Source of the DNA: Cytophagaceae bacterium
GTDB taxonomy: Bacteria; Bacteroidota; Bacteroidia; Cytophagales; Flexibacteraceae
NCBI GenBank assembly: GCA_027487695.1
Contig: JAIYDB010000093.1
Location: 1 to 33,645, forward strand
DNA: 33,645 nt
Direction of reading: 5' to 3'
In this document: positions 2,328-32,459 of the stretch, piece after piece
Layout: each line of letters begins with the position of its first letter
Numbering within the stretch: the stretch's first letter is position 1
Made by a program: the position numbers and the translations under genes
Notes under the pieces: model-generated
Seen by the model: the letters and a program-made list of their open reading frames with translations, nothing else
Told to the model about the DNA's origin: nothing
The model's database searches: none

Positions 2328-3539
2328 ATGTTAACCAATAACCTAGATATAAACGAGTTCAACTACCCTTTACCTGCTGAACGAATTGCGCAATACCCAG
2401 TTTCGCCAAGAGATAGTAGCAAGCTATTAGTTTTTAACCACAACAGCATAGAACACAAGGTTTTTAATCAATTACCTGAACTTTTGCCAAGTAATTCGCT
2501 ATTGGTTTATAATGATACTAAGGTTATCCCCGCCAGGCTTTTATTAGAATCTGAAACGGGAGCCCATATTGAGGTATTGGTCCTTGAACCACACTTTATA
2601 AGTGAAATTCAGTTAGCACTGCAAACGCAAGCTTCAGTATCATATACTTGCATGGTGGGCAACAAAAAGAAATGGAAGGAAGAACAAACCCTCCATTTCA
2701 AACACCCTAATTTTGAGTTGAAACTCACTTGGCTAAATCGTGAAGAAAACGTGGTTAGCTTTAGTTGGGAGCCTGCCCATTTAGTTTTCGCTGAAATATT
2801 AGAGCAGATAGGGGCCATCCCTTTGCCGCCATATATGACTAGAGCTGCTGAAGAGGAAGATGCCGAGAACTACCAAACCATTTATGCTGCTGAAAATGGC
2901 GCTGTTGCCGCCCCAACTGCGGGGTTACATTTTACTGAAAATGTATTTGATGCTATTAGAGCTAAAGGCATAAAAGAGCTTTCTGTAACCTTGCACGTGG
3001 GCGCTGGTACCTTCTTGCCAGTAAAAACTGATAATGCCCTCGCGCATACAATGCATGGTGAACAAATTGTGGTAACTGCTGAGGCAATAAGACGGCTGAT
3101 TGCACATAACGGACCTATAGTTGCTGTGGGTACTACATCGGTTCGTACTTTGGAATCGCTTTTTTGGCTTGGCGTTCAGGTGGCTACTAAAGGAACTCTT
3201 GATAAAGTTTATGTTCACCAGTTTGAGCCTTATGAAACTGAATCAATGCTTTCACGAAAAGAAGCCTTAGGTCAGCTTTTAGGTTGGATGGAAAGCAATA
3301 ACCTTAAAACCTTAATTGGCGAAACGCAGGTTATGATAATACCAGGTTATCAATACCGAATGATTGATGCGTTGATAACCAATTTCCACCAACCAGCATC
3401 TACGCTTATGTTACTGGTTTCAGCCTTCATAGGTGAGCATTGGAAAAGAGTTTATGAAAGTGCCTTAGCGAATGACTACCGCTTTTTAAGTTATGGCGAT
3501 AGTTCCTTGCTTATTCCTAAACCTTTCGACGCCATATAA
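2328..3539 (+). CDS. QueA-like S-adenosylmethionine:tRNA ribosyltransferase-isomerase (long paralogue)
   Basis: The 403-aa protein has the full set of QueA motifs: NDTKVIPARL (62-71), IPLPPYMTR (about 164-172), APTAGLHF (195-202), TLHVGAGTF (221-229), GTTSVRTLES (268-277), ITNFHQPAST (350-359) and YRFLSYGD near the end. QueA transfers ribose from S-adenosylmethionine to preQ1 in tRNA, giving epoxyqueuosine. It is longer than ordinary QueA (about 340-360 aa). The extra length lies mostly between residues 278 and 335, and the segment at 90-150 is unlike the other copy. A second, shorter QueA is encoded at 7842-8906 and QueG between them. It is divergent from gldF and overlaps the 3' end of batD by 23 bases. 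Family membership is sure. Whether this copy makes queuosine or has another role is open. Confidence 0.88.
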   Translation: MLTNNLDINEFNYPLPAERIAQYPVSPRDSSKLLVFNHNSIEHKVFNQLPELLPSNSLLVYNDTKVIPARLLLESETGAHIEVLVLEPHFISEIQLALQTQASVSYTCMVGNKKKWKEEQTLHFKHPNFELKLTWLNREENVVSFSWEPAHLVFAEILEQIGAIPLPPYMTRAAEEEDAENYQTIYAAENGAVAAPTAGLHFTENVFDAIRAKGIKELSVTLHVGAGTFLPVKTDNALAHTMHGEQIVVTAEAIRRLIAHNGPIVAVGTTSVRTLESLFWLGVQVATKGTLDKVYVHQFEPYETESMLSRKEALGQLLGWMESNNLKTLIGETQVMIIPGYQYRMIDALITNFHQPASTLMLLVSAFIGEHWKRVYESALANDYRFLSYGDSSLLIPKPFDAI

Positions 3540-7841: not shown

Positions 7842-8906
7842 ATGAAGCTTTCTGAATTTAAGTTCGATTTACCATCTGAACTAATTGCACAGCATCCTGC
7901 TCACAACCGTGACGAATCCAGACTTTTGGTTTTGCATAAGGATACCGGTAAAATAGAACATAAAGTATTTAAAGAAATAACACAATACTTTACTGATGGC
8001 GATGTGCTGGTATCTAATAATACCAAGGTATTTCCAGCAAGGCTTATTGGCAAAAAGGATAAGGCCCTAAATGATAAAAATCCTGCCGCAATTATTGAAG
8101 TATTCTTATTGCGTGAATTGAACAGACAAGAGCGTTTATGGGATGTTTTGGTGGATCCTGCCCGTAAAATAAGAGTAGGTAACAAACTTATTTTTGGCGA
8201 CGATTTACTTGTTGCTGAAGTTATTGATAACACCACAAACCGTGGCAGAACTATCAAATTCGACTTCAAAGGCGATTTAGATGAGTTCTATAAAATTATC
8301 CATACCCTTGGCGAAACCCCAATCCCTCGTGAATTGGGTAGGGAAGTGGAACCAGAAGATGAAAAGCGTTATCAAACTATTTTTGCCGAACATATAGGTG
8401 CTGTAGCTGCTCCAACAGCAGGTTTACACTTTACTATTCAGCTAATTAAGCGTTTGCAATTAAAAAATGTAAACATTCATCCAATTACCTTGCACGTAGG
8501 TTTGGGTACGTTCAGATCGGTGGAAGTAGAAGACCTTACCAAACATAAAACTGATAGCGAAAGCTATAAAATACCAGTTGAAACTGCCAAAGCTGTAAAC
8601 GTAGCCTTAGATTCTAAGAAGCGAGTTTGTGCGGTAGGTACTACAGTTTTAAAGACTATTGAAAGCAGTGTAACTGCTAGCAGTCACCTTAAAGAAAGCG
8701 AAGGCTGGACCGATAAGTTCATTTTCCCTCCATACGACTTTAAAGTAGTAAACTCTTTGATAACCAACTTACACTTACCAGAAAGCACTTTACTTATGAT
8801 GGCTTGTGCCTTTGGAGGTTATGAAAACGTAATGAATGCTTATAAAGTAGCCATTGAAGAAAAATACCGCTTCTATACCTATGGCGATGCGATGCTTATT
8901 ATTTAA
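7842..8906 (+). CDS. queA: S-adenosylmethionine:tRNA ribosyltransferase-isomerase QueA
   Basis: The 354-aa protein has the usual QueA length and motif order: [20 protein letters not shown] (10-29), [10 protein letters not shown] (59-68), APTAGLHF (190-197), TLHVGLGTF (216-224), [10 protein letters not shown] (307-316) and [13 protein letters not shown] at the end. The stretch [13 protein letters not shown] (99-111) is typical of the Bacteroidota QueA form, so this is the more likely housekeeping copy. QueA makes epoxyqueuosine from preQ1-tRNA and S-adenosylmethionine, and QueG follows in the pathway. Some family positions differ from the consensus I remember: [10 protein letters not shown] (266-275) where GTTS-x-R is usual, and IPRELGRE where IPxYIxR is usual. 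The first QueA-like protein keeps the usual residues at these places. Confidence 0.92.
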
Positions 8907-14751: not shown

Positions 14752-15792
14752 ATGAAGTTTACCGCAAGGCAAATAGCCAATCTTATTGGAGGCACCATTG
14801 AAGGTGATGAAAACGTAACAGTGGTTACGATAGCTAAGATACAAGAAGCTGAACCAGATGCTCTTGCCTTTTTTGCAAATCCGAAATACGAGGCAATGGT
14901 TTACACCACCAATGCTGGCGTATTACTAGTAAATAATGATTTTGTTCCTAAAGAATCTGTAAAGTCAACCTTAATCAGGGTACCTGATGCTTACCTAGCC
15001 TTTACAGGTTTATTAGAATACGCTCAAAAGCTGTTACTTTCTTTAAAAGTGGGCATTGAACAACCATCCTTTCAATCTGAAGGAGTGAAGATGGGAGATA
15101 ACTGCTACTTAGGTGCTTTCAGCTATTTAGGTACCAATGTTAAAGTTGGTAATAACACTAAAATATATCCACAAGTTTTCATTGGCGATAACTGCGAGAT
15201 TGGAAATGATACCATCATTTATGCTGGTGTAAAAATCTATGCAGGAAGTAAAGTAGGTAGCCATTCCGTAATCCATTCAGGTTGTGTAATTGGTGCCGAT
15301 GGTTTTGGCTTTGCTCCACAACCAGATGGTACTTACAAAACAATTCCTCAACTAGGAAATGTAGTAATTGGCGACCATGTAGATATTGGAGCAAACACAA
15401 CAATTGATCGCGCCACCCTTGGGAGTACCATTATTAAGGATGGTGTTAAACTAGATAACCTTATTCAAATTGCCCACAACGCAACCGTTCAGGAAAACAC
15501 TGTAATAGCAGCTCAAACTGGAGTTGCCGGTAGTGCAATTGTTGGCAAAAATTGTATGATTGGCGGGCAAGTTGGCATTGTTGGTCATATAACCATTGCC
15601 GATGGCACTAAAATTCAAGCACAAAGTGGAGTAAACTATTCCACAGAAAATAATGCAGTTTTACAAGGTAGTCCTGCAGAAGACCGTTCAAAGCACATTC
15701 GCAATCTGGTTGCTTTCAGGCAATTAGCTAATATGCTTACCAAATTAAACACTTTAGAAAAACAGGTTAAGGCATTAGAAAATCAGCAGTAA
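14752..15792 (+). CDS. lpxD: UDP-3-O-acylglucosamine N-acyltransferase
   Basis: The 346-aa enzyme performs the third step of lipid A synthesis, N-acylation of UDP-3-O-acylglucosamine with an acyl-ACP. Residues 1-100 form the uridine-binding domain (ARQIANLIGGTIEGD at the start). From about 105 a left-handed beta helix of hexapeptide repeats follows, with the catalytic His242 in LIQIAHNATV and the GADGFGFAP motif at 181-189. A short helical C-terminus (about 315-346) closes it. The length is normal. It is the first gene of the lipid A block, 75 bases before lpxC/fabZ. Confidence 0.97.
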   Translation: MKFTARQIANLIGGTIEGDENVTVVTIAKIQEAEPDALAFFANPKYEAMVYTTNAGVLLVNNDFVPKESVKSTLIRVPDAYLAFTGLLEYAQKLLLSLKVGIEQPSFQSEGVKMGDNCYLGAFSYLGTNVKVGNNTKIYPQVFIGDNCEIGNDTIIYAGVKIYAGSKVGSHSVIHSGCVIGADGFGFAPQPDGTYKTIPQLGNVVIGDHVDIGANTTIDRATLGSTIIKDGVKLDNLIQIAHNATVQENTVIAAQTGVAGSAIVGKNCMIGGQVGIVGHITIADGTKIQAQSGVNYSTENNAVLQGSPAEDRSKHIRNLVAFRQLANMLTKLNTLEKQVKALENQQ

Positions 15793-15867
15793 AATTGAAA
15801 TGTTACATACTCATTTGCAGAAGTATTTTCTCATCTCAATTTTTCGTTTTTACTTTGTCAGGCTTTT

Positions 15868-17262
15868 ATGAACACAAAACAGCATACAGTTAAAAGTCCT
15901 GTTTCAATTTCAGGGGTTGGTTTACACACCGGACAGCTCGCAACACTTACGTTTTGCCCTGCTCCAGCTAATCACGGAATTAAATTTCAACGGATAGATT
16001 TACCGGGTGAGCCTATTGTGCACGCCGATGTAGATAACGTAGTTGACGTAAGTCGGGGAACTACAATTGAAGAAAATGGTGCAAGAATTAACACCGTAGA
16101 ACATTGCCTTGCCGCCCTTGTAGGGATGGAAATTGACAATGTGCTTATCCAAATAGATGGACCTGAAATCCCTATTATGGATGGTAGTTCTATGCCGTTT
16201 ATTGAAAAACTTGAAAAAGTAGGCACAGAAGAACAAAACGCTATGCGTAATTTCTTTGAAGTTACCGAAATGGTAAACTACAGAGATGAATCGCGTAATG
16301 TTGAAATTGCAGCCCTTCCACTTAACGATTACAGGCTAACTGTAATGGTTGATTATAATAGTCCTGTACTTGGTAGCCAACATGCATCAATTACAGATAT
16401 TAGTCAGTTTAAAAAAGAGATAGCCAGTTGCAGAACATTCTGTTTCCTTCATGAAATAGAACAGTTATACAAACAAAACCTGATTAAGGGTGGCGATTTG
16501 AGCAATGCAATTGTAGTAGTAGATAGAGTAGTTGAAGAATCTGAAATCCAGTACCTAGCTGATTTATTCCGTCAACCAAAGGTGGAAGTACAGTCTGAAG
16601 GTATCTTAAATAACCTTGAACTTCGTTATAAAAACGAACCTGCGAGGCATAAACTTCTTGATTTAGTAGGTGATCTTGCTCTAGCTGGTCGTCCTTTAAA
16701 GGCGCAAATTCTAGCAGCTCGTCCAGGTCACGCGGCAAATGTTGAGTTTGCTCGTAAGCTTAAGCGTTTAATGAAGGAGCAAAGTAAGAGCCCAGTTCCT
16801 TATTATGATCCTAAGCTACCTCCAGTACTAGACGTAAATGAAATTTACAGAAGGTTACCACACGCTTACCCATTTAAACTAATCGATAGAATTTTTCACC
16901 TAGATGCTACTTCCGTAGCCAGTGTTAAAAACGTAACTATCAACGAACCTTATTTCCAAGGTCACTTCCCTGGTAACCCAGTTATGCCAGGCGTTATGCA
17001 AATTGAAGCTATGGCACAAACGGGCGGTATCTTGGTACTAAGCACAGTAGATGACCCTTACAATTATTGGACTTATTTCCTCGCCATTGAAAATGCACGC
17101 TTCAAAAAGTTTGTTGTTCCTGGCGATCAGATAATTTTCAAATGTGAGTTAATTGCACCTATTAAAAGGGGTATTGCCAAAATGTTTGGACAAGCCTTTG
17201 TATCAGGTCAAGTAGTAAGCGAAGCCATAATGACAGCCAGTGTTGTAAGGAAAGACAAATAA
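15868..17262 (+). CDS. lpxC/fabZ: Bifunctional UDP-3-O-acyl-N-acetylglucosamine deacetylase / 3-hydroxyacyl-ACP dehydratase (LpxC-FabZ)
   Basis: The 464-aa protein is a fusion. Residues 1 to about 305 are LpxC, the zinc deacetylase that commits lipid A synthesis: zinc ligands His79 (TVEHCLAAL), His261 and Asp265 (RHKLLDLVGDLAL), and catalytic His288 (RPGHAANVEFA). Residues from about 318 are FabZ, the hot-dog fold dehydratase of fatty-acid synthesis: His332 (LPHAYPFKLIDRI) and Glu380 (GVMQIEAMAQ), with the GHFPGNPVMPGVM motif. Both active sites are complete. The fusion is known in Bacteroidota and joins the two pathways competing for 3-hydroxyacyl-ACP. lpxA begins one base after the stop. Confidence 0.97.
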   Translation: MNTKQHTVKSPVSISGVGLHTGQLATLTFCPAPANHGIKFQRIDLPGEPIVHADVDNVVDVSRGTTIEENGARINTVEHCLAALVGMEIDNVLIQIDGPEIPIMDGSSMPFIEKLEKVGTEEQNAMRNFFEVTEMVNYRDESRNVEIAALPLNDYRLTVMVDYNSPVLGSQHASITDISQFKKEIASCRTFCFLHEIEQLYKQNLIKGGDLSNAIVVVDRVVEESEIQYLADLFRQPKVEVQSEGILNNLELRYKNEPARHKLLDLVGDLALAGRPLKAQILAARPGHAANVEFARKLKRLMKEQSKSPVPYYDPKLPPVLDVNEIYRRLPHAYPFKLIDRIFHLDATSVASVKNVTINEPYFQGHFPGNPVMPGVMQIEAMAQTGGILVLSTVDDPYNYWTYFLAIENARFKKFVVPGDQIIFKCELIAPIKRGIAKMFGQAFVSGQVVSEAIMTASVVRKDK

Positions 17263-17263
17263 T

Positions 17264-18070
17264 ATGAACCAACCTGCTCCCTACATACATCCGGATGCAC
17301 AAATACATCCAAGCGCTGTGATAGCACCGTTCGCCTATATTGAAGGCGACGTTGTTATAGGCGAAGGCTGCTGGATTGGTCCGCACGCCTGCATTATGAA
17401 TGGTGCTCGCTTAGGAAAAAACATTAGAGTTTTTCCTGGAGCGGTAGTATCAGGCATACCACAAGACTTAAAATTTGACGGCGAAGTAACTACCACTGAA
17501 ATTGGCGATGGCACTACCATCCGCGAATGTGTAACTATTAGCCGTGGAACTAAAGATAGATTCAAAACCGTAATTGGCGAAAATTGCCTTATTATGGCTT
17601 ACGTACACGTAGCTCACGATTGTATTATTGGAAACCATGTAATTCTTGGTAACAGTGTACAAGTAGCTGGTCACGTAACCATTGAAGATTGGGCTATTAT
17701 TAGTGGTGCTTCGGCAATACATCAATTTGTTCAAGTTGGGGCACACAGCATGGTAGCAGGTGGTTCACTTGTTCGTAAAGATGTTCCTCCATTTATTAAA
17801 GCCGCGCGTGAACCTTTAGCTTATGCTGGTATCAATACAATCGGTTTACGCAGAAGGGGTTATAGTCACGAACAAATAGATTCAATTCACAACTGTTTCC
17901 GTTTGCTTTACCAGAAAGGCTTGCCTGTAAGTAAAGCGCTTGAACAAATTGAAGCTGAAATTCCTGATAGCGACGAAAAAGCCCAATTAACTACTTTCTT
18001 AAAGCGTAGCAATAGGGGAGTGATAAAGGGTTTTGAAACCGAAATGAAGGATACCGATTTCGGATTTTAA
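17264..18070 (+). CDS. lpxA: UDP-N-acetylglucosamine O-acyltransferase
   Basis: The 268-aa enzyme catalyses the first step of lipid A synthesis, adding a 3-hydroxyacyl chain to UDP-GlcNAc. The N-terminal two-thirds is a left-handed beta helix (HPDAQIHPSAVIAPFAYIEG onward). The catalytic base is His118 in YVHVAHDC. GLRRRGYSHEQI and the helical C-terminus (about 190-268) are typical. The ATG follows the lpxC/fabZ stop by one base, so translation is probably coupled. lpxD, lpxC and lpxA thus give three of the first lipid A steps in one unit. pdhA lies 72 bases downstream, with no clear terminator between. Confidence 0.97.
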   Translation: MNQPAPYIHPDAQIHPSAVIAPFAYIEGDVVIGEGCWIGPHACIMNGARLGKNIRVFPGAVVSGIPQDLKFDGEVTTTEIGDGTTIRECVTISRGTKDRFKTVIGENCLIMAYVHVAHDCIIGNHVILGNSVQVAGHVTIEDWAIISGASAIHQFVQVGAHSMVAGGSLVRKDVPPFIKAAREPLAYAGINTIGLRRRGYSHEQIDSIHNCFRLLYQKGLPVSKALEQIEAEIPDSDEKAQLTTFLKRSNRGVIKGFETEMKDTDFGF

Positions 18071-20304: not shown

Positions 20305-21702
20305 ATGACTGCAGTAACTAACGACTCGACCTCCCAAAAACACCCACCAGGTTTATACCTACTTTTCTTCGCGGAAATGTGGGAACGCTTTAGCTTTTAT
20401 GGCAACCGCGCCCTACTAGTACTTTTTATGAGCAAGCCACTTATGGAAGGTGGTTTGGCAATTGCAAAATCGGATGCCGTAAAGTATTATGGCCTCATTC
20501 AAGGAGCTTGTTACTTAACCCCAATTATTGGTGGGTTCTTAGCTGATAAGTTTTTAGGACAACGTAAATCAATCTTAATTGGTGGTTTACTTATGGCAAT
20601 AGCGCAGTTGGTACTTTTCCTTTCTGCACAAGCTACAAGTATTGACTATTTCTGGATGGGTATTGCGTGTTTAATCATTGGTAATGGATTCTTTAAACCG
20701 AATATTTCTACGCTAGTAGGTAGGTTATATCCTGAAGGTAGCACCCTAAAAGACCAAGCCTATACCATATTCTATATGGGTATTAACCTAGGTGCTATGA
20801 GTCCACTTTTAATTGGGCCAATCGTTGAAAACTGGGCTGCTGAATTTGGGCCAGATGGTAAAATTAGCCACTACGGTTTTCAGTGGGGCTTTTTGTTAGC
20901 TTGTGGTGGCATGTTATTAGGTCAGCTAATTTTCAATTTATTAGCTTCTAAATACTTAGGCTCAATTGGTACAGCACCAGTAAAAACAGATAAATCTGCC
21001 ACCGAAAAGGCGGAAGATGGCTCTGGTGGCGCACTTTCAAAAATTGAAATTGATAGAATGATTGTACTAACCATCATTACTATTTTCTCAATCATATTCT
21101 GGTTAGGCTTTGAGCAAGCAGGTGGTGCATTCACCCTATATACTGATAACTACTTAGATAGAAACTTTATGGGTACTGTTATCCCAACGACTGTTTTCCA
21201 AGCAATTAACCCAATTTTCATTTTGGCTTTAGGTTTCCCACTATCTATAATGTGGATTAAAATGGGACCTAAAAACCCATCGCTTATCGTGAAAATGGCT
21301 TTAGGTTTGGTACTAATGGGTGCTGGTTTCTTCCTAATGGTAGGTGCTGCAATTGAACGTGGTGGCGATTCTGCTCCTGAAACAGCTTTAGCTTCTATGT
21401 GGTGGATGGTTGCTACATACTTTGTGCATACTGTTGCTGAGTTATTCCTTTCACCTGTAGGTCTTTCTGCAGTTTCTAAACTAGCACCAAAATCACTTAC
21501 TAGTGCATTTATGGGAGTTTGGTTCCTATCTCCATTCATTGCCCATACATTGGCAGGCTTTACGGAATCGTATATTGAAGTGCTAGGTGCCATTAACGTA
21601 TTCACCTATATTGGTGCTGGCGGTATTGCAATTGGTATTTTAATGTTAGTATTCTCTGGCGTTTTAAAGAAGATGATGCACGGTGCAGAAACAGCCAGTT
21701 AA
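20305..21702 (+). CDS. POT/PTR family proton-dependent oligopeptide transporter
   Basis: The 465-aa inner-membrane protein of the major facilitator superfamily imports di- and tripeptides with protons. The signature ExxERFxxYG is in EMWERFSFYG (Glu24, Glu27, Arg28), which is needed for proton coupling. The second PTR signature FYMGINLGAMSPLLIGPIV follows at about residues 152-170. There are about 12-14 membrane segments, with a soluble linker (about 225-245) rich in Lys, Ala and Gly between the halves. The length is a little short but normal for bacterial members. A terminator follows at once, so it is a single-gene unit. Confidence 0.94.
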   Translation: MTAVTNDSTSQKHPPGLYLLFFAEMWERFSFYGNRALLVLFMSKPLMEGGLAIAKSDAVKYYGLIQGACYLTPIIGGFLADKFLGQRKSILIGGLLMAIAQLVLFLSAQATSIDYFWMGIACLIIGNGFFKPNISTLVGRLYPEGSTLKDQAYTIFYMGINLGAMSPLLIGPIVENWAAEFGPDGKISHYGFQWGFLLACGGMLLGQLIFNLLASKYLGSIGTAPVKTDKSATEKAEDGSGGALSKIEIDRMIVLTIITIFSIIFWLGFEQAGGAFTLYTDNYLDRNFMGTVIPTTVFQAINPIFILALGFPLSIMWIKMGPKNPSLIVKMALGLVLMGAGFFLMVGAAIERGGDSAPETALASMWWMVATYFVHTVAELFLSPVGLSAVSKLAPKSLTSAFMGVWFLSPFIAHTLAGFTESYIEVLGAINVFTYIGAGGIAIGILMLVFSGVLKKMMHGAETAS

Positions 21703-21892: not shown

Positions 21893-23968
21893 ATGCGCTT
21901 AAACTTAAATTTGTTGCTTGTTATTTGTATAACTATTTGGTTTACAGAAGTTAAAGCACAAACGATTTCAGAAAAAGTTACTTCCGAATGTAATATCGGG
22001 ATGACTATCAATAACTTAGGTATCATAGGCAACGCCTTTAATGGTTCTTACGTTGCTAATCCTCCCTTTCCTAGCTGTCGTTATCCTAAAAGTTCTGATA
22101 TAGAGCATCTTTTCACGGGAGGTTTATGGGTAGGTGGACTTAAGCAAGGGCAACCTGTTGTTACTACAGGTGCATTTGAAGCCAGCAGAGGCTATAGTGT
22201 GGGCGGTGCAAATTTTGAATTTGTGGCTCCGTTCGGTTCAGTATTGCAAGAGCGTTCATCATTAATTAGTAAGCAAGACTTATATTCTCCTGCTGCTATA
22301 TCTCACCAAGATTTTATTTCTGAATTTACCGATACCGCCTTTCGTGGGGTAGTGCCAGGAACACAATTTCCTATACCAGGTTATAATCCCTTAGGCCTTT
22401 CGGTTAGAATGGAAACCTATAATTGGAACTTCCCTTATTCTAACTTCTTTGTAATCCTCAATTTCAGGATTATTAACGTAGGTCAAGATTCTATTGTTAA
22501 TCCTTATGTAGGTTATTGGGCAGATGGGGCAGTTAGAAACGTACGTGTTTCTCCTCCTGGAACTACCAACTTTTTCGGAACAGGGGGCAATGCCTACATA
22601 GATTCATTAAATGCAGTTTACGAATACGATGCCACTGGCGATACCGCTTCTACTAGAAGTTATATGGCCATTAAATACCTTGGCGCAACTGATGCCAAAG
22701 GTTTTAGGTATCCTCTTCCTTATGGCAATCCTGCTATCAATCAAGATTTTAAGTGTAATAAGTATTCTTGGCGTTTCCGTGGTATTGAAGACTTCCAAAG
22801 CCCTAATACTGAGGCTTTACGCTATGATAGAATGAGTACTTCTATCACCGACCGACCAAACTGGAACGACCTCAAAACGATTATTGCCAAAGATTTTAAC
22901 GGCTCAAACCTTATAAGTGCAGGTCCGTTTACTACCCTTTACCCAGGCGATACCATCAATGCTACATTTGCTGTAGTGCTTGCCGATAGAGTTTTAGATG
23001 GTTTCCCGCCAGAAGCAAATACTGCTACTCAACTCAGAAATTTAATTAGTGGTTGCCAATATGTGCAAGCTGCTTTTAACGGAAACGACCGTAACTACGA
23101 TGGTTTAGCCGATAGCACAGGTGCTAGATTACAACGCTTTTTATTGCCAACCCCACCAGCAATTCCTAATACCAAAGTGGTAGCTCGTGATAATGCAGTC
23201 GATATCTATTGGAACAAAGAAGCTGAAAACAGCCGTGATAGAATTACTGGTCTGCAAGACTTTGAAGGGTACCGTATTTATAAAACCAAGTTCGGTTATG
23301 ATGTTCAAGCTGCTGTTGATGAAAACAACGCCTTTGAAATAGTTGCAGAATTTGACAAGGCAGGTAATAACCTGTTCTATAATACAGGTTTCAGTAAAAT
23401 TGCACTAGGTACTCCAGAAGTAATAGATGGTGATACGATGTTTTATAAGTACACCATTAATAAACTACAAAATGGTTGGCAGCATGTAGTTGCCCTTGAA
23501 ACTTTTGACGGTGGTAACCCTAGAACAAACCTTCCTTCATTGGCGACTGGTCCTTTGAACAACTTGTTCCGTGTTTTCCCTGGAAAAACGGCCAATGCTG
23601 ATGTTAAGAAGACAGAGCCTTTTGTTTACCCAAATCCTTACTACGGGGAAGCAGCTTGGGAAGGCATTGCCACTACAAGACCAGAAGATAAAAAGCTTTA
23701 CTTTGCTAATTTACCTAAGCGTTGCGTAATCCGTGTATTTACAATGAGCGGCGATTTAGTGGATGTAATTAACCACGACCAGGCCTACAACGGTTCAGAT
23801 ATAAAATCGTTCAGCAGTCCTAACCAGACTGTTTTTTCAGGAGGCGAGCACGCTTGGGATTTGCTTTCAAGTAATAACCAAATCATTTCTAGAGGTTTAT
23901 ATATGTTCACAGTCGAAGACTTGGAGAACAAAAAAACTTTTAGAGGCAACTTTACCATTATCAAATAA
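21893..23968 (+). CDS. Secreted protein with FnIII-like domain and T9SS-type C-terminal domain, function unknown
   Basis: The 691-aa product has a signal peptide (cleavage near VKA-Q at residue 22). Residues 23-415 form an unrecognised beta-rich region containing SSDIEHLFTGGLWVGG (67-82), which I believe recurs in secreted proteins of Bacteroidota and Ignavibacteria with no known role. Residues 418-555 look like a fibronectin III domain (DNAVDIYWN, FEGYRIYKT). The last 115 residues carry VYPNPYYGE and end with ISRGLYMFTVED...FRGNFTIIK, the pattern of a type IX secretion C-terminal signal. It is thus probably exported to the cell surface. It is the first gene of the cluster, 27 bases before the next gene. 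Confidence 0.8.
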   Translation: MRLNLNLLLVICITIWFTEVKAQTISEKVTSECNIGMTINNLGIIGNAFNGSYVANPPFPSCRYPKSSDIEHLFTGGLWVGGLKQGQPVVTTGAFEASRGYSVGGANFEFVAPFGSVLQERSSLISKQDLYSPAAISHQDFISEFTDTAFRGVVPGTQFPIPGYNPLGLSVRMETYNWNFPYSNFFVILNFRIINVGQDSIVNPYVGYWADGAVRNVRVSPPGTTNFFGTGGNAYIDSLNAVYEYDATGDTASTRSYMAIKYLGATDAKGFRYPLPYGNPAINQDFKCNKYSWRFRGIEDFQSPNTEALRYDRMSTSITDRPNWNDLKTIIAKDFNGSNLISAGPFTTLYPGDTINATFAVVLADRVLDGFPPEANTATQLRNLISGCQYVQAAFNGNDRNYDGLADSTGARLQRFLLPTPPAIPNTKVVARDNAVDIYWNKEAENSRDRITGLQDFEGYRIYKTKFGYDVQAAVDENNAFEIVAEFDKAGNNLFYNTGFSKIALGTPEVIDGDTMFYKYTINKLQNGWQHVVALETFDGGNPRTNLPSLATGPLNNLFRVFPGKTANADVKKTEPFVYPNPYYGEAAWEGIATTRPEDKKLYFANLPKRCVIRVFTMSGDLVDVINHDQAYNGSDIKSFSSPNQTVFSGGEHAWDLLSSNNQIISRGLYMFTVEDLENKKTFRGNFTIIK

Positions 23969-23995
23969 ACCTATCATTCACTTACTCAATTTATT

Positions 23996-26260
23996 ATGAG
24001 AAAATTACTACTTGGGTTGTTTGCTTTATGTGCTATGAATAGCGCTATGGCACAAACCGAAACAACAATTAGGGGGATTCAGTTCCGTACCCCAGAACAA
24101 CTTGCTGCTCGTGCCGATGAAAATAACTTTGTTGGTCAGGCTGTTAGAGTTAGAGGCGTAGTACTTATTCCTGGTACCGCAAACGTAAGTTCTTCTGAAG
24201 CAAATCCTAATCGTCACGTTTGGATGCGTCAGATAGGTGGTGGACCATTTTCAACCATTGGTTTCAGACACGATGGAAATACAGCACCTACAGATATGCG
24301 TGACTTGCAAATAGGTGATACTATTGAAGTGACAGGTGTTGCTGGTGAATTTAGAGGTGAAACACAAATTTTACCTGTAACATCAGTAAGAGTTATTTCC
24401 TTATATGAACCCGGTTCTCCTAAACCTGCAGCTACGCCTATTGAAATGCGTAATATGAATACTGTTCGTTTGCAAGATAGTATTCCATTAGGTGAGCAAT
24501 ATGAAGGCGATTATGTTGAATTAAGCAATGTAAGAGTTGTTGCAGTTGATCGTTTTTTTGCAAGTAATGCAAGCCGTGTTAGTTTTACCGTTCAAGATGA
24601 ATTTGGAAATAGATTAAGTATTGGCGATCGTTTCTTTGCTCAACGTTTACCAAACTGTTCTACATCACCCGTGAACCTTTGTGGACGTTTTGTTCCTCCA
24701 AGTGTTGGTGATGTATTTAGAAAAATTAGAGGTATTGTATTACATAATAAAGTTACTGGTGGTGGAACAAGAGGTGTTGGATACCAAATCCATCCTTTTG
24801 ATTCCCTTGATTATGAAAAAGGGAAGTCTGCTCCATTTGTAATCAATGTAAACAACAACCCAATTAAGCCTACTTCTGCACAAAACTGTTTAATTACAGC
24901 TCAAATTACTGATGGTACCGATTCATTAGGTAGAAGAGCTGAAATTACAAGGGCAATGTTATACTACACTCGTTTAGCTAACGATGCAACTGCAGTAACT
25001 ACTTTTACAGACTCTTTACAGTTGATTCGTGTTGGTGCAAGTGATTTGTTTAATGCAACAATTCCTGCTCAACCTGATGGTAGCATTGTAGCTTATTACA
25101 TTAGCGTAAGTAATAATCAAAATTTAACTACTAACTCTCCTGATGTTAGTAGAGCTGCCTTAACTGAATCGCCTCGTTTTTATTGGGTGTATGACAGGGC
25201 TTTACGCATAGCTGATATCCAAAGAAACCCATTAGTACCAACAAGAAGTGATATTAGAAATGCAGTAAGTGGTAGCATTGGTGCTCAAGTAACTGTATCA
25301 GGTATTGTAACAGTTGATACTAGCTTTAGCGGTCGTGCCTTCTTTATGCAAGATGCCACTGGCAGGGATTTCGCAGGTATTATGGTTCGTGTTACTAATG
25401 AAAGTGACTTAAGAAACCTAAGAAAAGGGCAGACAGTTACTGTTACAGGTATTGTTTCTGAAGATGGTCAAATGACTTATTTATTAGCAGCTAACGTAGT
25501 TATTGAAAATCAACCTTTAACGGCTATTCTTCCTCTAGAAATTCCTTTAACTGAATTAAATGTTGGAGTTTCAACCAGAAATGGAACTACAGTTACGGAT
25601 GCAGTTAACTGGTCATTAGCGAAAGAAAAGTATGAAGGTCAGTTAGTTAGAATAGTTAATCCTTCAGGAAACTTAGTAGTTTCAGATACAAACTTTTTAA
25701 GTAGCCTAAACACACCAGATACAACAAACTTTGGTGAATGGAAAGTAGGTTTAGATAGAACTGAAACAAATGGTGTAATTATCCTTTCGGGTTTACGTAG
25801 TAGATCAAATACTTATGTAAGCAGTCTTTACAATCCCTTCATAAATACTGATTCTTCAACTAGAATAAGAGTAACACCAAGACCAATTAGAACTGGTCAA
25901 GAGTTTGCTGCCATCACAGGTGTGGTTTACCACTCTTTCGGTATCTTAAAGCTTATCCCTAGAGATGGTTCTGATGTATGGTTAACTCCACAATCGGCTA
26001 ATGGCTTAATCAACAACTTGGTAGCTATGTTCCCTAACCCAGCTACTGAATCAGTAAATATTAACTTGAACCTAGAAAACGTTTCTGGTTATAATGTTCA
26101 ATTTACTGACCTAAGCGGCAGAACAGTGAAGCGTAATGCTCTAAACAGTGTGAACAACACTATTTCTGTAGCTAACTTGAATAACGGTTTATACGTAGTA
26201 TCAGTAACCGATGCTAGTGGTAAATTGGTATTCCGCAACAAATTAAACATAGTAAAATAA
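23996..26260 (+). CDS. T9SS-exported protein with four OB-like modules, function unknown
   Basis: The 754-aa product has a signal peptide (ending SAMA-Q at residue 20). OB-fold-like beta modules are seen at about 44-135 (GQAVRVRGVV, GDTIEVTGVA), 170-260 (YEGDYVELSNV, GDVFRKIRGIVL), 428-503 (GAQVTVSGIV, GQTVTVTGIV) and 545-660 (YEGQLVRIVNP). The first pair seems repeated by the second pair. Between them an immunoglobulin-like domain (about 278-395) has the ITDGTDSLG...AMLYYTR...VAYYISVS pattern. The end, from MFPNPATESVNI through LSGRTVKR and LNNGLYVVSVTD, is a T9SS type A sorting domain. Similar modules accompany surface nucleases in Bacteroidota, but I see no nuclease domain. A terminator-like hairpin follows. 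Confidence 0.82.
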   Translation: MRKLLLGLFALCAMNSAMAQTETTIRGIQFRTPEQLAARADENNFVGQAVRVRGVVLIPGTANVSSSEANPNRHVWMRQIGGGPFSTIGFRHDGNTAPTDMRDLQIGDTIEVTGVAGEFRGETQILPVTSVRVISLYEPGSPKPAATPIEMRNMNTVRLQDSIPLGEQYEGDYVELSNVRVVAVDRFFASNASRVSFTVQDEFGNRLSIGDRFFAQRLPNCSTSPVNLCGRFVPPSVGDVFRKIRGIVLHNKVTGGGTRGVGYQIHPFDSLDYEKGKSAPFVINVNNNPIKPTSAQNCLITAQITDGTDSLGRRAEITRAMLYYTRLANDATAVTTFTDSLQLIRVGASDLFNATIPAQPDGSIVAYYISVSNNQNLTTNSPDVSRAALTESPRFYWVYDRALRIADIQRNPLVPTRSDIRNAVSGSIGAQVTVSGIVTVDTSFSGRAFFMQDATGRDFAGIMVRVTNESDLRNLRKGQTVTVTGIVSEDGQMTYLLAANVVIENQPLTAILPLEIPLTELNVGVSTRNGTTVTDAVNWSLAKEKYEGQLVRIVNPSGNLVVSDTNFLSSLNTPDTTNFGEWKVGLDRTETNGVIILSGLRSRSNTYVSSLYNPFINTDSSTRIRVTPRPIRTGQEFAAITGVVYHSFGILKLIPRDGSDVWLTPQSANGLINNLVAMFPNPATESVNINLNLENVSGYNVQFTDLSGRTVKRNALNSVNNTISVANLNNGLYVVSVTDASGKLVFRNKLNIVK

Positions 26261-26273
26261 GCATATCCTGATT

Positions 26274-26306
26274 GGCCGACTCTTGCAATAGGGTCGGCCT
26301 TTCTTT
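26274..26306 (+). terminator. Terminator-like hairpin directly before the lipoprotein start codon
   Basis: GGCCGAC (26274-26280) pairs with GTCGGCC (26293-26299) across a 12-base loop, followed by TTTCTTT. It ends 3 bases before the ATG at 26310, so it can act as terminator or attenuator for transcripts from the upstream genes and also covers the normal ribosome-binding region. Confidence 0.75.
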
Positions 26307-26309
26307 ATT

Positions 26310-27824
26310 ATGAAGCAACTTTACCCACTCATTTTCATATTGGTAATTGCGCTGCTTGGCAGCTGCAAAGAAGGCGAACTACTTAAAACTAGTGCACCTT
26401 CTACCTCTTTATACGTTGATACTATTGCCCTTAGCGATAACGAACGCCTACCAAGTAGGGTATTGTTACGTTGGCAAGGCTTTAGTGCCGATGATTATGT
26501 AGTTGGTTATAAAGTGCTTTTCTCTTTTTCACCTATTCCTAATACAGCTGCTGCTTTTGATACTGTTAAAAGCGTAACCACAAAAACCGATTCTACTTTT
26601 CAGTTTGTAATACCAAGAGGCAGTAATAATGCCGATGTATATTTTTCTGTACAAGCCATTAATAGCAAAGGCATAGCCGATAATAATCCGCCTGTGCTAA
26701 AAGTGCCTATTATCAATACTCCACCAACTAGTCGTTGGGACGATGCCAAGCTACCGAAAGCAAATCAGGTATTGGCAGTAGTTACATTACCTTTTAATGT
26801 GGACGATTTCGATGGGAAAAACACCCTCGATAGCGTTCAAATCAGAGCCAATTTTGGCGAATGGATAACCATTCCTACCTCAACTACCCAGATAGCCTTG
26901 GTAGCTCAAAATCCGAAACAAAGCGGAACACAGTCTGCATTGATATATAATTCAACTTTTGAAAGAGGTCCTCTTTCAATACGCTTACCTAATTTCCGTA
27001 ATAACGATAGCAATAGCTTTGAAATAAGAGCCATTGATGCCTCAGGAGCCACCTCAAAATCAGATACCACCAAGAGTATTTTTGTTACTGCGCAAAGAGG
27101 AGATTTATTGGTATTGGAAGGTCATTACTCAGATTCATTATTGCCTTTCTATAAGACTCAAGTTTTTGCAAACACTTCAGTTGCCACTAATGGGGTTGAC
27201 TTCCTAACCTTTGCCCAAAATAACGAGCTAGACCAACCACAAGTTTTAGATCCTACTCTTGACCTATTGTTCTCTCTGTACAATAGCATCTATTTCTATA
27301 ACGATGTGCGTAATAGTGGTGATGACCCTTATTTGTTAGAAAGCTACTATCCTTATTTCAGAAACTACTTAAGGAACAACGGTAAACTGATTCTTAGTTG
27401 TCCGTTCCCAAAAGCAGTAGAGGCATTATCGAGTAATTCCCCAGTTTTTAGTTTAATACCAGTAAGCACCCAAGGTTTTGGAGCTACAGCATTCCAAGTA
27501 TCAGTTGCCCGATTAAATAACAATAGAGCGGCAAATCCGGCGGCAAGAGCAACAGGTTTCCCTGCTTTAACAAGTAATTTTGCCTTCGCTTCGATTGATC
27601 CATTCAATATTACCCCAGATGGTGATAGTTTATATTCGGCGCCAAATATTTTTTATACCCCAGCTAATCCATCTGGTAGTCAAATTATTGCAGCACGCAA
27701 AAAGAATAGCCAAGGAAAAACTAACCTGGTTTACTTTTCAGTGGAACTGCATAAGCTGAATGGTAACAATCAAAATTTACAACAACTATTTACCCATATT
27801 TTGAACAATGAATTTAACTGGTAA
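26310..27824 (+). CDS. Surface lipoprotein with FnIII-like domain, function unknown
   Basis: The 504-aa product has a lipoprotein signal with lipobox LGSC (Cys19). Residues about 45-150 look like a fibronectin III domain (RVLLRWQGFSADDYVVGYKV, then VYFSVQAINSKG), and an Ig-like unit follows. From about residue 267, DLLVLEGHYSDSLLPFYKTQ, together with YFRNYLRNNGKLILSCPF further on, resembles a glutamine-amidotransferase-like Rossmann fold without catalytic residues that I can name; this part is inference. The gene starts right after a terminator-like hairpin and overlaps the TonB receptor gene by 17 bases. By position it is the likely partner lipoprotein of that receptor, although it is not SusD-like. 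Confidence 0.75.
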   Translation: MKQLYPLIFILVIALLGSCKEGELLKTSAPSTSLYVDTIALSDNERLPSRVLLRWQGFSADDYVVGYKVLFSFSPIPNTAAAFDTVKSVTTKTDSTFQFVIPRGSNNADVYFSVQAINSKGIADNNPPVLKVPIINTPPTSRWDDAKLPKANQVLAVVTLPFNVDDFDGKNTLDSVQIRANFGEWITIPTSTTQIALVAQNPKQSGTQSALIYNSTFERGPLSIRLPNFRNNDSNSFEIRAIDASGATSKSDTTKSIFVTAQRGDLLVLEGHYSDSLLPFYKTQVFANTSVATNGVDFLTFAQNNELDQPQVLDPTLDLLFSLYNSIYFYNDVRNSGDDPYLLESYYPYFRNYLRNNGKLILSCPFPKAVEALSSNSPVFSLIPVSTQGFGATAFQVSVARLNNNRAANPAARATGFPALTSNFAFASIDPFNITPDGDSLYSAPNIFYTPANPSGSQIIAARKKNSQGKTNLVYFSVELHKLNGNNQNLQQLFTHILNNEFNW

Positions 27825-30660
27825 AGCTATATGCCTTTGGTTATTGTTTTTAGGATGGGCAATAAACGTATCGGCACAAAGTACTCCTGCAACTACTAGT
27901 CCTTCGGGTACATTAGTAGGTAAGGTTACTGATAAAGAATCTGGCGAACCACTGATTGGTGCCACCATCATGATTGTTGGTACTTACAAAGGTGCTGCAA
28001 CTGACTTTGATGGAAATTACATCATAAAAAATATTAAGCCGGGCGATTACAGCATAAAGGTTTCGTTCGTGGGATATACCGAAAAGATATTTACAGGTAT
28101 AAGAATTAAGGATGGCGAACCAACCAAATTAAGTGCTGCCATCTCTCAAATTGTAATTACCCGCCAGACAGTTGAAATTATTGGTCAGCGCCAAATTGTT
28201 GATATAGAGGATGGAAAAAGCCAAGTGCGTATTTCAGCCACTGATATTAAAGAAATGAATGTGAAGAACATTCAGGATATTATATCACAACAAGCTGGGG
28301 TTAGTGTATCGCCTGATGGTTTACAAATTAGAGGGGGTAGGGTTTATGAAACCCAATACCGTGTAGATGGTATTAGCGCAACCGACCCACTTGCAGGTAC
28401 AGGTTTTGGAGTAGAAGTATCTGCTGGTTCAGTAGCTGATGTTACCTTGGTAACTGGGGGTGCCGATGCAGAATACAATGGAACATCTGGTATTGTAATT
28501 ACAAAAGTGAAAGAAGGTGGCGATAAGTTTCAGGTATCTGGTGCTTGGCAACGTGACAATTTTGGTACTAATGTGAACCGTGGCAGTGCTTGGAACACTG
28601 ATATTGCAGAATTAGCTTTTGGAGGTCCGCTTTCTAAGAATAAGAAACTAAGGTACTTTGTATCGGGCAATGCTGCCTTTAACGATACCTATTACAGACT
28701 TACTGCCAATCAGTTACAATCAAGCATTACTGCTTACGATAAAACATTGGCCCCAAGGCAAGATAACAAAGTTACTAATACCATTAAGCTTAGCTACAGA
28801 GTAAACGACCAAGTAAAGCTTACTCTTACCAACCAACATTCCATTTTGATTAACCAGAATTCAAGAACCCTTCAAATTGTTGGTTTTGATGCTATTTTGG
28901 CTCCGGGTTTACAGTATCCATTTTCACAACTTTTGGATAATGCTACTACCTATACACACAGAACTAACCTTACTGCAGCCAATATTGATTATAGCTTTGG
29001 TAAGAACTTTACCTTTATTGGTAGCGTGGGTAGGTTATTTACTAACCTAAGAGCTGATGCTAATGGCAGGCCATTCCGTACCGCTACAGTTGATCGTGAC
29101 TTTGATCCAAGATCGGTACCTACTTTACCGGGAGTAGTTTACCCAAGTAATGATAGCACCGTGCAGTTCACTTTGCCGGGTAATGGTTTGTTCAATAATC
29201 CTGATGGTTTAACCACACTTTGGCATGACCACTACGTTCAGGAATATACTGTAAAGGCAAAGTTTAACTACCTAAGCGATAGCAAAAGGCACTTTATGTC
29301 GTTTGGTATTGAGCACAAAATGCAGGATATGCAGTGGGTAGATGTGAGTTCACCTTGGGTGGGTGCCCCTATTATTATCCCTGGTGTTGATACCTTAAAG
29401 AGCGATAGAATTGGTACATCGTCTGATGTTTGGAAAGTTAAAACCAACCAAGGCAGTATTTTCTTCCAAGACGAAATCAAGTACAAAGGTATTATTGCTA
29501 CAGTCGGCACATCGTTAGAGTACTGGCGACCAGGTAAATATGCTGAAGATGCCGTTGATAACCCGCGTACACCCTTACCAGACCAAACTAGAGAGGATTT
29601 CAAAAAGCAAACCTATAATGTGTTTGGTGCGAGGTATAAAGCCAGACTTTTACCACGAGTTAGAGTATCGTTCCCAGTTACAGAAAACCAAGTAATGTAC
29701 TTTAATTACGGCCATAGTATGCGTTTGGCTCACCCACGTTTCGTTTATGGTGGTATGGATCCTGTTTACTTGAACCGTGCAGAAATTGGTGATTTGGGTA
29801 ACCCAGGAATTAATCCAGAAGTTGCGGTATCGTACGAAGTAGGTATTAAAGGACAACTAAACAGAGATTTCGGTTATACTTTTACCGCCTTCTATAAGGA
29901 TTACTTCGATTTCATTGTTAACAGAAGCGTAGTAGTAAGAGGTGTAACAGGAGGTTTAGAAACCAAGTCGTTTGCATTTAACCAAGATTATGCAAGGGTA
30001 AGAGGTGCAGAAATTATGGTAAGCTACCGTTTAAGTTCTATGGTAAGAGCCATGGCTAATGCCTCGTTCCAAGTAGCTACTGGTAAATCAAACACCGCTG
30101 CTGAAAGTAGGTTACAAATTATTAACCAAGGCAATGTAGACTTAACCAAAGAACAATACCTAGCATGGGACCGTCCGTTAGATTTAAAAGGTACCCTAAT
30201 TTTTACCCCTGATACCTCAGTTCGCTTCTTTGGTATTCCATTGAAATACACAAGAGTTTTCGTGAGCTCTACTTGGAAGAGTGGCTTACGTTATACCCCA
30301 GCCGTATTGGTAGGAACCGATGACTTAGGCAGACCACGTTATGAGTCTGATTCAAAAAATCCATTTTCAGAAATTGGTAGTGCTTGGTCTTGGACCGATA
30401 TTAAAATTACCCGCGATTTCCCACTTGGAAAGAAGCGTTTTATTTCAGCTAGTATAGAAATAAACAACGCTTTCAATAATAAGAACGCTCAAATTATTAA
30501 CCCAGTAACTGGTACCGCTTACCAAAATGGCGATCAGTTATTGTATAGCCAACGTGATCCAAACTATCCATCGCCTTTAGACTTTGGTACACCTCCAAAT
30601 AACCCAGCGAGGTATATGCAGCCAAGGCAAATTATATACGGGATAGCCTTTAACTTCTAA
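27808..30660 (+). CDS. TonB-dependent outer-membrane receptor with carboxypeptidase-like regulatory domain
   Basis: The 950-aa outer-membrane protein has a signal peptide (ending NVSA-Q at residue 24), then a carboxypeptidase regulatory-like beta domain at 34-116 (GKVTDKESGEPLIGATIMIV, TDFDGNYIIKNIKPGDY). A plug domain follows at about 140-237 (GLQIRGGRVYETQYRVDGI, VTLVTGGADAEYNGTSGI). The remainder is a beta barrel ending in aromatic YGIAFNF. It imports an unknown ligand using TonB energy. No SusD homologue is adjacent, so it is not a standard polysaccharide utilisation locus. The start lies inside the lipoprotein gene (17-base overlap), suggesting coupled translation. A strong terminator ends the unit. 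Confidence 0.93.
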   Translation: MNLTGKAICLWLLFLGWAINVSAQSTPATTSPSGTLVGKVTDKESGEPLIGATIMIVGTYKGAATDFDGNYIIKNIKPGDYSIKVSFVGYTEKIFTGIRIKDGEPTKLSAAISQIVITRQTVEIIGQRQIVDIEDGKSQVRISATDIKEMNVKNIQDIISQQAGVSVSPDGLQIRGGRVYETQYRVDGISATDPLAGTGFGVEVSAGSVADVTLVTGGADAEYNGTSGIVITKVKEGGDKFQVSGAWQRDNFGTNVNRGSAWNTDIAELAFGGPLSKNKKLRYFVSGNAAFNDTYYRLTANQLQSSITAYDKTLAPRQDNKVTNTIKLSYRVNDQVKLTLTNQHSILINQNSRTLQIVGFDAILAPGLQYPFSQLLDNATTYTHRTNLTAANIDYSFGKNFTFIGSVGRLFTNLRADANGRPFRTATVDRDFDPRSVPTLPGVVYPSNDSTVQFTLPGNGLFNNPDGLTTLWHDHYVQEYTVKAKFNYLSDSKRHFMSFGIEHKMQDMQWVDVSSPWVGAPIIIPGVDTLKSDRIGTSSDVWKVKTNQGSIFFQDEIKYKGIIATVGTSLEYWRPGKYAEDAVDNPRTPLPDQTREDFKKQTYNVFGARYKARLLPRVRVSFPVTENQVMYFNYGHSMRLAHPRFVYGGMDPVYLNRAEIGDLGNPGINPEVAVSYEVGIKGQLNRDFGYTFTAFYKDYFDFIVNRSVVVRGVTGGLETKSFAFNQDYARVRGAEIMVSYRLSSMVRAMANASFQVATGKSNTAAESRLQIINQGNVDLTKEQYLAWDRPLDLKGTLIFTPDTSVRFFGIPLKYTRVFVSSTWKSGLRYTPAVLVGTDDLGRPRYESDSKNPFSEIGSAWSWTDIKITRDFPLGKKRFISASIEINNAFNNKNAQIINPVTGTAYQNGDQLLYSQRDPNYPSPLDFGTPPNNPARYMQPRQIIYGIAFNF

Positions 30661-30680: not shown

Positions 30681-30716
30681 AAACAGCACTAATGAAAAAT
30701 TGGTGCTGTTTTTTTG
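30681..30716 (+). terminator. Intrinsic terminator after the TonB receptor gene
   Basis: AAACAGCAC (30681-30689) pairs with GTGCTGTTT (30703-30711). The stem extends by four more pairs, one of them G-T, to 13 base pairs with loop GAAAA, and a run of T follows. It closes the surface-protein cluster. Confidence 0.92.
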
Positions 30717-31824: not shown

Positions 31825-31861
31825 AAAAGTGATAGAGGTTTCTCTATCACTTTTTACTTTT
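31825..31861. terminator. Intrinsic terminator between convergent genes
   Basis: AAAAGTGATAGAG (31825-31837) pairs with CTCTATCACTTTT (31842-31854) across loop GTTT. The plus strand has a T-rich tail to 31861. On the minus strand the stem is followed only by TTTT inside its own arm, so action in that direction would be weaker. It overlaps the stop codon region of the minus-strand lipoprotein gene. Confidence 0.88.
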
Positions 31862-32459
31862 TTAGGCGAACTGCATAAAGGGCTATACACCATACCTCGG
31901 TGCCATACTTATAGCCATACCCATTTATAGAATAGCCAGAACTAAGCAAGTGAAACTCTCTATGGTTGGCCTCTCCAATAATGCCTGTATGTCCAGTAAG
32001 CGGGTCAGGAGGAAATTGAAACCAATATTGCACTATATCTCCTGGTTTTAAAGAATCATTTGCAGGTACCCAATCGGCTAAACCTTTATCAACTAGTACC
32101 TTACAGATACCTGTAATTTTAGAAGAATCGTTATTCCTTAGGTCAGCCTCAACTTGTTTAAGGCTTACGCCTTTAATATAGATGGCATCCTTTTCTGCTT
32201 GGGTAAATGTATAATGAGGCTTCAGGAGGTCGTGCATAAACTGCACACAATTACGGGCTTTGTAATTTGGTGCTAGTTTAGGTCCTCTTAATTCGGCTTC
32301 TTTTACCAACCAATGGGCGTTGGTATCTATTCGGTAGTTATCAGGCTCAAAGTTGCTCGTACTAGTTCCTAGTATATCTGAAACAATATCACCTGTCCTT
32401 GTTTCAGTACAAGAAAAAAGCAACCAAGAAATAATGACTAGAATGGTCAAAGGTTTCAA
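31854..32459 (-). CDS. Lipoprotein with a cysteine-peptidase/amidase-like (NlpC/P60- or CHAP-like) domain
   Basis: The 201-aa product has a lipoprotein signal with lipobox LFSC (Cys17). The mature part has ARNCVQFMHDLL (Cys71) early, LKPGDIVQYWFQF in the middle (about 137-149), and TGHTGIIGEA with His157. A Cys at the start of a helix, then a GDIV strand and a His in a G-H-x-G strand is the layout of NlpC/P60 and CHAP cell-wall peptidases and amidases. No family can be fixed. If active it would work on peptidoglycan or a peptide in the periplasm. It lies 46 bases after the agmatine deiminase gene on the same strand and may be co-transcribed, with no obvious functional link. Confidence 0.7.
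   Translation of the reverse strand: MKPLTILVIISWLLFSCTETRTGDIVSDILGTSTSNFEPDNYRIDTNAHWLVKEAELRGPKLAPNYKARNCVQFMHDLLKPHYTFTQAEKDAIYIKGVSLKQVEADLRNNDSSKITGICKVLVDKGLADWVPANDSLKPGDIVQYWFQFPPDPLTGHTGIIGEANHREFHLLSSGYSINGYGYKYGTEVWCIALYAVRLKK

Follow-up and report, generated by a model that had tools for sequence, protein, structure and literature searches.

A SusD-free TonB receptor operon conserved across Bacteroidota, with a possible role in nucleic acid uptake

What is carried by a TonB-dependent receptor whose neighbouring lipoprotein is not SusD? The question is raised by four adjacent genes in a 33,645-nucleotide stretch of a Cytophagaceae bacterium contig, the whole of which we call the window. 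All features given below lie on its forward strand unless stated otherwise. g1 (21893..23968) encodes a 691-aa secreted protein. g2 (23996..26260) encodes a 754-aa T9SS protein with OB-fold modules and no nuclease domain. g3 (26310..27824) encodes a 504-aa lipoprotein with two FnIII/Ig-like domains and a ThuA/class-I-amidotransferase-like domain, and g4 (27808..30660) a 950-aa TonB-dependent receptor composed of a CarbopepD_reg domain, a plug and a barrel. A previous sequence-only reading had described the same four ORFs on one strand with spacings of 27, 49 and −17 bases, all of which we confirmed. It had joined the g1-g2 half to the g3-g4 half by position, and had proposed non-carbohydrate uptake or surface assembly.

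A terminator-like hairpin (26274..26299) takes up the larger part of the g2-g3 gap; its 10-bp stem is followed by TTTCTTTATT, a T-rich tail. A second hairpin lies 3′ of g4 (30681..30711), with a 13-bp stem followed by a T run. The first may be a partial terminator, in which case the g3-g4 half might be expressed below the g1-g2 half; the second is a possible end of the local transcription unit. Seven hairpins of this type were found in the region against 7.8 expected. This is about the chance rate, so that the hairpins of the window are only suggestive.

The two halves were found together in other genomes. When genome contigs were scanned with the g4 alignment, 231 relatives came up, and we retained 80 of them (L035-L114). 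The retained relatives, from Cytophagales, Flavobacteriales, Sphingobacteriales and other groups, were 45-60% identical to g4, and the carriers include an isolate genome, Phaeocystidibacter luteus LMG 25704 (L100). Forty-five of the 49 loci with complete flanks had g1-g2-g3-g4 in order, followed in 44 by a gene pair for a PorV-like barrel and an NHL-type protein. The full order EEP-g1-g2-g3-g4-PorV-NHL, with a gene for a T9SS-type EEP nuclease at its head, was seen in 34 of the 49. Nine had the six-gene core without EEP, one had all seven genes with g2 duplicated, one had g1-g2-g3-g4 with EEP further on, one had g3-g4-PorV-NHL and three had g4 alone. The EEP gene was present in 36 of the 45 g1-g4 loci and absent beside nine of the 44 six-gene cores. 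From EEP to NHL, the median intergenic distances were 0, 15, 20, −17, −1 and −4 nt, short gaps that suggest an operon-like spacing.

The distribution extends beyond the window's class. Among 395 genomes sampled over the entire phylum, 113 had a match to a g3 profile, and of these all except the window's own were outside its class. Twenty loci fetched from other classes had the same core again, with EEP adjoining in several; in three of them (L118, L123 and L134), either g2 or g3 was below the detection threshold or fused with a neighbour in the frame. The g1-g4 order in 45 of 49 loci and its return in other classes argue that the arrangement is not due to chance. The seven-gene set, with its six-gene core, is almost certainly an ancient operon conserved over much of Bacteroidota. 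The link between the two halves was therefore upheld, and g1-g4 homologues across Bacteroidota were mostly together. The four-gene cluster of the sequence-only reading, while correct as to co-location, is in relatives a six-gene core plus a nuclease gene. Besides the propeller-type lipoprotein encoded by the NHL gene, no further lipoprotein recurred in the loci. A reading as anti-phage defence was dropped, as PADLOC models matched none of the seven proteins.

Co-inheritance was also seen among 39 genomes of the window's order. g3 and strong matches to g1 and g4 were found in the identical 13 genomes, mostly in the order g1-g2-g3-g4, with some draft contigs ending inside the cluster. One genome (G002) has the set in three places (g1; g2 with g3; g4 with the downstream pair), with every member still present. 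In the loci of relatives, g1-g4 were preceded by an EEP-superfamily gene and followed by genes for a PorV/PorQ-family barrel and an NHL-type propeller lipoprotein. The propeller lipoprotein was present in 12 of the 13 g3-positive and none of the 26 g3-negative genomes (Fisher 3e-9), and EEP in 12 of 13 and 2 of 26, respectively (Fisher 3e-7). Both co-occurred with g3 even where unlinked. g3 and the propeller protein each gave one match per positive genome. In the window, no remnants of the PorV, NHL or EEP genes were found 3′ of g4. The barrel and propeller genes of the window's genome are paired at the edge of another contig (C60; L173, 1-1900), where they are cut by the contig edge. An EEP gene was not found in this genome, whose assembly is 96% complete. 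In L035-L114, the N-terminus of the propeller lipoprotein has a conserved C-E-x-(Y/F)-(F/L)-G-x-K-T-D-L-x-F right after the lipidated Cys.

The receptor itself is of a familiar build. g4 has a signal peptide, a CarboxypepD_reg-like domain (27910..28140; PF13620, E 5.9e-17; CarbopepD_reg, E 4e-18), a plug (28228..28482; PF07715, E 2.3e-6) and a beta-barrel with barrel-family matches, in agreement with the layout read earlier from the sequence. Its match to the SusC/RagA model was partial, covered mainly the N-terminal domains and reached 57 bits against a cut-off of 368. Judged by this score, g4 is not a full SusC/RagA-type protein. Mean column identity was 67% over 12 sequences.

Its partner g3 starts with a signal peptide, and the Cys19 of its lipobox is invariant in 55 aligned homologues. 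No Pfam model matched it, SusD included, so that the concern that g3 might be an ordinary SusD member did not hold. In an AF2 model (pLDDT 88), residues 31-255 form FnIII/Ig-like domains, and residues 262-504 (27093..27821) form a ThuA/amidotransferase-like domain, as the earlier suggestion of an FnIII-like protein with an amidotransferase-like fold had it. The latter domain resembled 3soz (Z 14.5), the ThuA-like structure 4pxy (Z 12.6), homoserine O-succinyltransferase 2h2w (Z 11.1) and a levan-utilisome chain, 8aa2_G (Z 10.5). Residues 262-504 lack any conserved Cys, His or Glu, so that this domain probably serves in binding. For the levan SGBP, two Ig-like domains have been described, followed by a domain similar to ThuA-like proteins and to homoserine succinyltransferases (PMC7618045). 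g3 likewise is lipidated, with two Ig-like domains and a C-terminal ThuA-like domain in its model. Searching with the g3 sequence against solved structures added little, and there was no sequence similarity to the SGBP-lev chain 8aa2_G. As modelled, g3 is a pseudo-amidotransferase lipoprotein with the domain order of SGBP-lev, and not SusD. It had been called an unusual partner; this was right in that it is not SusD, but a precedent exists in the levan utilisome. The absence of SusD, the sub-cut-off SusC/RagA score of g4 and the fold of g3 together ruled out a SusCD/PUL reading.

Could the operon nevertheless be a glycan utilisome of unusual make-up? g3 would be its SGBP, g1 would contribute a carbohydrate-binding supersandwich, and EEP would act as a phosphodiesterase on a phosphorylated polymer. 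g1 speaks for this, along with the SGBP-lev architecture of g3. In its AF2 model (pLDDT 81), g1 has a beta-supersandwich (about 20-420), an FnIII-like domain (about 430-570) and a C-terminal sorting-like domain (about 575-691). The supersandwich, a domain type otherwise found in carbohydrate-active enzymes, resembled those of GH94/GH65/GH116 (Z 15-19), and the catalytic (alpha/alpha)6 domain was absent. g1 had no Pfam match, and its orthologues were about 40-55% identical. Other observations argue in the opposite direction. The EEP nuclease was the only polymer-degrading enzyme in the recurring set of L035-L134, which held no SusD and no glycan-degrading enzyme, the flanking genes being partly annotated; the absence of glycan enzymes, and of sigma/anti-sigma genes, agrees with what had been read from the window. 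Glycan loci differ in content among species, whereas the content of this operon is constant, and g2 and EEP belong to DNase families. We consider a glycan utilisome quite unlikely. The levan utilisome of Bacteroides thetaiotaomicron (SusC-SusD-SGBP-GH; PMC7618045) remains a useful comparison, with its TonB receptor, its Ig-Ig-ThuA-like surface lipoprotein and its surface polymer-cutting enzyme. Unlike it, the operon lacks SusD and a full SusC, has a T9SS-tailed EEP nuclease in place of a lipoprotein GH32, and adds a PorV-like barrel, an OB-fold protein and a propeller lipoprotein in a composition fixed across the phylum. Peptide uptake through the upstream POT-family gene (20305-21702) was another candidate; it was rejected because other genes occupy that place in relatives L014-L017.

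A hint at the substrate came from g2 and EEP. Part of g2 (25295..25966) matched positions 1-212 of the 546 positions of the ExeM/NucH extracellular DNase model (E 1.4e-11), and all 26 g2 orthologues matched this model (best 1.4e-19). These positions are its OB half. A g2 profile also matched the N-terminal domain of 9sf8, a solved EEP-domain protein (1.3e-5). The EEP proteins of relatives matched positions 230-544, the catalytic half. All these ExeM/NucH matches of g2 and EEP were below the 300-bit cut-off. The MnuA nuclease family was matched by 14 of 23 EEP members, and the EEP proteins of relatives had an invariant catalytic set (E73, H171, D209/N211, D273 and S333-D334-H335). With the OB half in g2 and the catalytic half in EEP, the two together make one ExeM/NucH-type extracellular DNase split over two genes, as the models show at the level of the family. 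ExeM/NucH enzymes carry the OB part and then the EEP part in one protein; the operon version differs from them in being split, in its T9SS tails and TonB receptor, and in that no catalytic half was found for the genome of the window. Non-nucleic substrates are also known for OB folds and for EEP enzymes. The ExeM/NucH OB-fold modules of g2, the hairpin between g2 and g3, and the six- or seven-gene set of relatives all go beyond the earlier description of the locus.

The export route of these proteins could be read from their tails. The tail of g2 is a type A sorting domain of the T9SS (26027..26230, residues 678-745; PF18962, E 4.7e-13), seen in 25 of 26 orthologues, and 17 of 23 EEP members have a T9SS tail. 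Of the two T9SS-exported proteins proposed earlier, g2 thus has the expected tail; the C-terminus of g1 showed only weak matches to that of PorZ (E 0.018 and 4.7e-4), and its export by the T9SS is putative. The presence of SprA indicates that a T9SS exists in the window's genome.

The partners of g4 lead to a second group of operons. In Riemerella anatipestifer, an outer-membrane gene with CarboxypepD-reg and an adjacent DUF5689/DUF5017 gene (RA0C_RS04915/RA0C_RS04920) are each essential for natural transformation, and neither matches known machinery (PMC8459023). Deletions of tonB there lower transformation, an effect that the authors partly attribute to iron (PMC8383284). Loci with strong DUF5689 matches in the window's class encode, in this order, a receptor, a DUF5689/DUF5017 lipoprotein and an OB-fold T9SS protein, and an EEP of the operon's family was near two of them. 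By hhalign, the C-terminal half of g2 matched the OB-fold third gene of these operons (8.4e-43) and its N-terminal half matched DUF5689 (4.7e-9, probability 96%). PF18942 (DUF5689) directly matched 2 of 26 g2 orthologues (6.5e-6), and gave no direct match to the g2 of the window. Across the class, EEP was found with 4 of 8 DUF5689 operons versus 12 of 52, a weak association.

The receptors did not follow their partners. In a quick tree, which contained the DUF5689-adjacent receptors of related operons in place of the Riemerella receptor itself, these and g4 formed separate clades with support of 99 each, and g4 as their sister received no support. Four rows of the tree (L163_860, L163_887, L166_853 and L166_872) are not receptors and one (L164_1080) probably belongs to another type, which leaves both groups as they are. 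By these profile and tree comparisons, then, the partner modules are common to both operon types and the receptor is not specially related. The operon is like the Riemerella pair in that an outer-membrane receptor stands beside putative DUF5689/OB-fold partners, and g2 appears homologous to both partner proteins of the related operons. It is unlike them in its separate receptor clade, and the Riemerella-type operons lack g1, g3, the PorV-like barrel and the propeller protein. A test for mutual exclusion of the two operon types was uninformative, because a receptor of the DUF5689-operon type was present in just 1 of the 39 relatives. The nearest relative of g4 in the tree was a 1253-aa paralogue from the same genome. 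The paralogous module in which it lies (L174, G000:C99, 6586-16000) includes a PorV-like barrel and a g1-like protein of 1453 aa but neither g2 nor g3, and shares its contig with sprA. Matched positions place this module in G005 as well, a genome without the main operon.

These relations raise the possibility that the operon imports DNA for natural transformation, as the outer-membrane DNA channel and receptor of Bacteroidota without type IV pili, with the nuclease trimming the DNA or making an entry end. The g2 modules common to DUF5689 operons, whose Riemerella counterparts are essential (PMC8459023), would fit this, as would the high conservation of g4 and the single match to g3 and to the propeller protein in each positive genome. 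Against it, the receptors of the two operon types belong to different subfamilies, transforming DNA would be at risk of destruction by a secreted DNase, and no competent organism with the operon is known here. We regard import for transformation as unlikely. Charge was no guide to DNA binding: most orthologues of g2 and g3 have an acidic pI (median about 4.6), the partners in transformation-type operons are likewise acidic, and the g2 of the window is basic (8.6).

Another use of the same genes would be surface assembly, with the PorV-like barrel, g1 and the receptor as a platform on which T9SS proteins are anchored or displayed, and the receptor serving as a scaffold and not as an importer. 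The barrel of relatives belongs to the PorV/PorQ family (NF033709, 6.9e-42), as do the T9SS PorV and PorQ shuttles, but it is below the equivalog cut-offs of both and is encoded with a receptor. A dedicated gene of this family within the operon, and the paralogous module of receptor, g1-like and PorV-like proteins in the same genome, speak for such a platform. It would leave the lipoprotein, OB-fold and nuclease genes with no obvious role, and g4 retains the plug and CarboxypepD-like domains of an importer. A platform is in our judgment rather improbable.

Still less can be said for a small-molecule receptor that works with lipoproteins and takes up a siderophore, a cofactor or a metal complex. 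BtuG, the surface lipoprotein partner of the TonB receptor BtuB, has a propeller fold. In the operon, too, a propeller-type lipoprotein is encoded near a TonB receptor, an arrangement like that of the BtuB-BtuG complex for vitamin B12 uptake (PMC10404256); the g4 barrel also has weak siderophore-receptor matches. The operon and BtuB-BtuG have no demonstrated sequence relation, and the operon has additional secreted proteins. Three large secreted proteins, one a nuclease, are unexpected for a small ligand, and no further gene recurred beside the core. This makes a small-molecule receptor very improbable.

We therefore favour, tentatively and with a probability of roughly 0.45, a SusD-free, T9SS-assisted TonB surface uptake complex for a polymer that is most probably extracellular nucleic acid, with DNA the likeliest. 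The operon, its order, its co-inheritance, its domain content and its homologies are observations, from which we infer its assembly at the surface, its substrate and the direction of transport. On this view g1, g2 and the EEP nuclease would leave the cell by the T9SS, perhaps shuttled or anchored by the dedicated PorV-like barrel. At the lip of the receptor, g3 might catch the polymer as the levan SGBP does, given the identical domain order. The OB-fold modules of g2 would bind the polymer, and the EEP enzyme, where present, would cut it. The TonB-driven channel of g4 would then import the fragments. Imported nucleic acid would feed the cell with phosphate or nucleotides or, with lower probability, serve transformation.

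A nucleic-acid substrate is suggested by the DNase-family identity of g2 and EEP and by homology to the partners in DUF5689 operons. The DNase-family genes also make non-carbohydrate uptake, as in the sequence-only reading, the likelier case, although the substrate is a deduction and g1 has a domain of carbohydrate-enzyme type. This fold of g1 counts against the nucleic-acid reading, as does the lack of EEP in part of the loci and in the window's genome. Counted against the favoured explanation were also the position of g4 outside the sister group of DUF5689-operon receptors, the acidic g2 and g3 orthologues, and the lack of co-travelling genes for nucleotide processing or phosphate, none of which were seen among partly annotated flanking genes.

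The passage of DNA across the outer membrane of Bacteroidota is largely unexplained. The operon joins, in a fixed order across the phylum, a conserved TonB receptor, an ExeM-type nuclease and OB-fold proteins of the Riemerella kind. A bolder claim would be that it is a phylum-wide machine that imports nucleic acid through a TonB receptor with its own T9SS-exported split DNase, capture lipoprotein and PorV-like barrel. It would then represent an outer-membrane DNA route of Bacteroidota without type IV pili, for nutrition and possibly for transformation; we think this doubtful. Even with another substrate, it would be a widely conserved surface transport operon. No description of it was found in the open-access literature searched, outside which most subscription journals lie. 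We rate its composition as new, and its overall kind as a TonB-receptor surface complex of the utilisome type.

Some other genes were noted on the way. Another pairing of OB fold, nuclease and receptor was seen in L172 (653-6860), where the genes for a PorV-like barrel and a TonB receptor have as their divergent neighbour a gene for a T9SS protein that combines an OB-fold part with an apparent nuclease part of phospholipase-D type. In the window, two genes (2328-3539 and 7842-8906) have QueA-type domains of queuosine synthesis (PF02547), and lpxD, a fused lpxC-fabZ and lpxA, for lipid A synthesis, lie in a row (14752-18070). A reverse-strand gene (31854-32459) with a TTG start encodes a 201-aa putative lipoprotein with a lipobox-like start and a weak CHAP-domain match.
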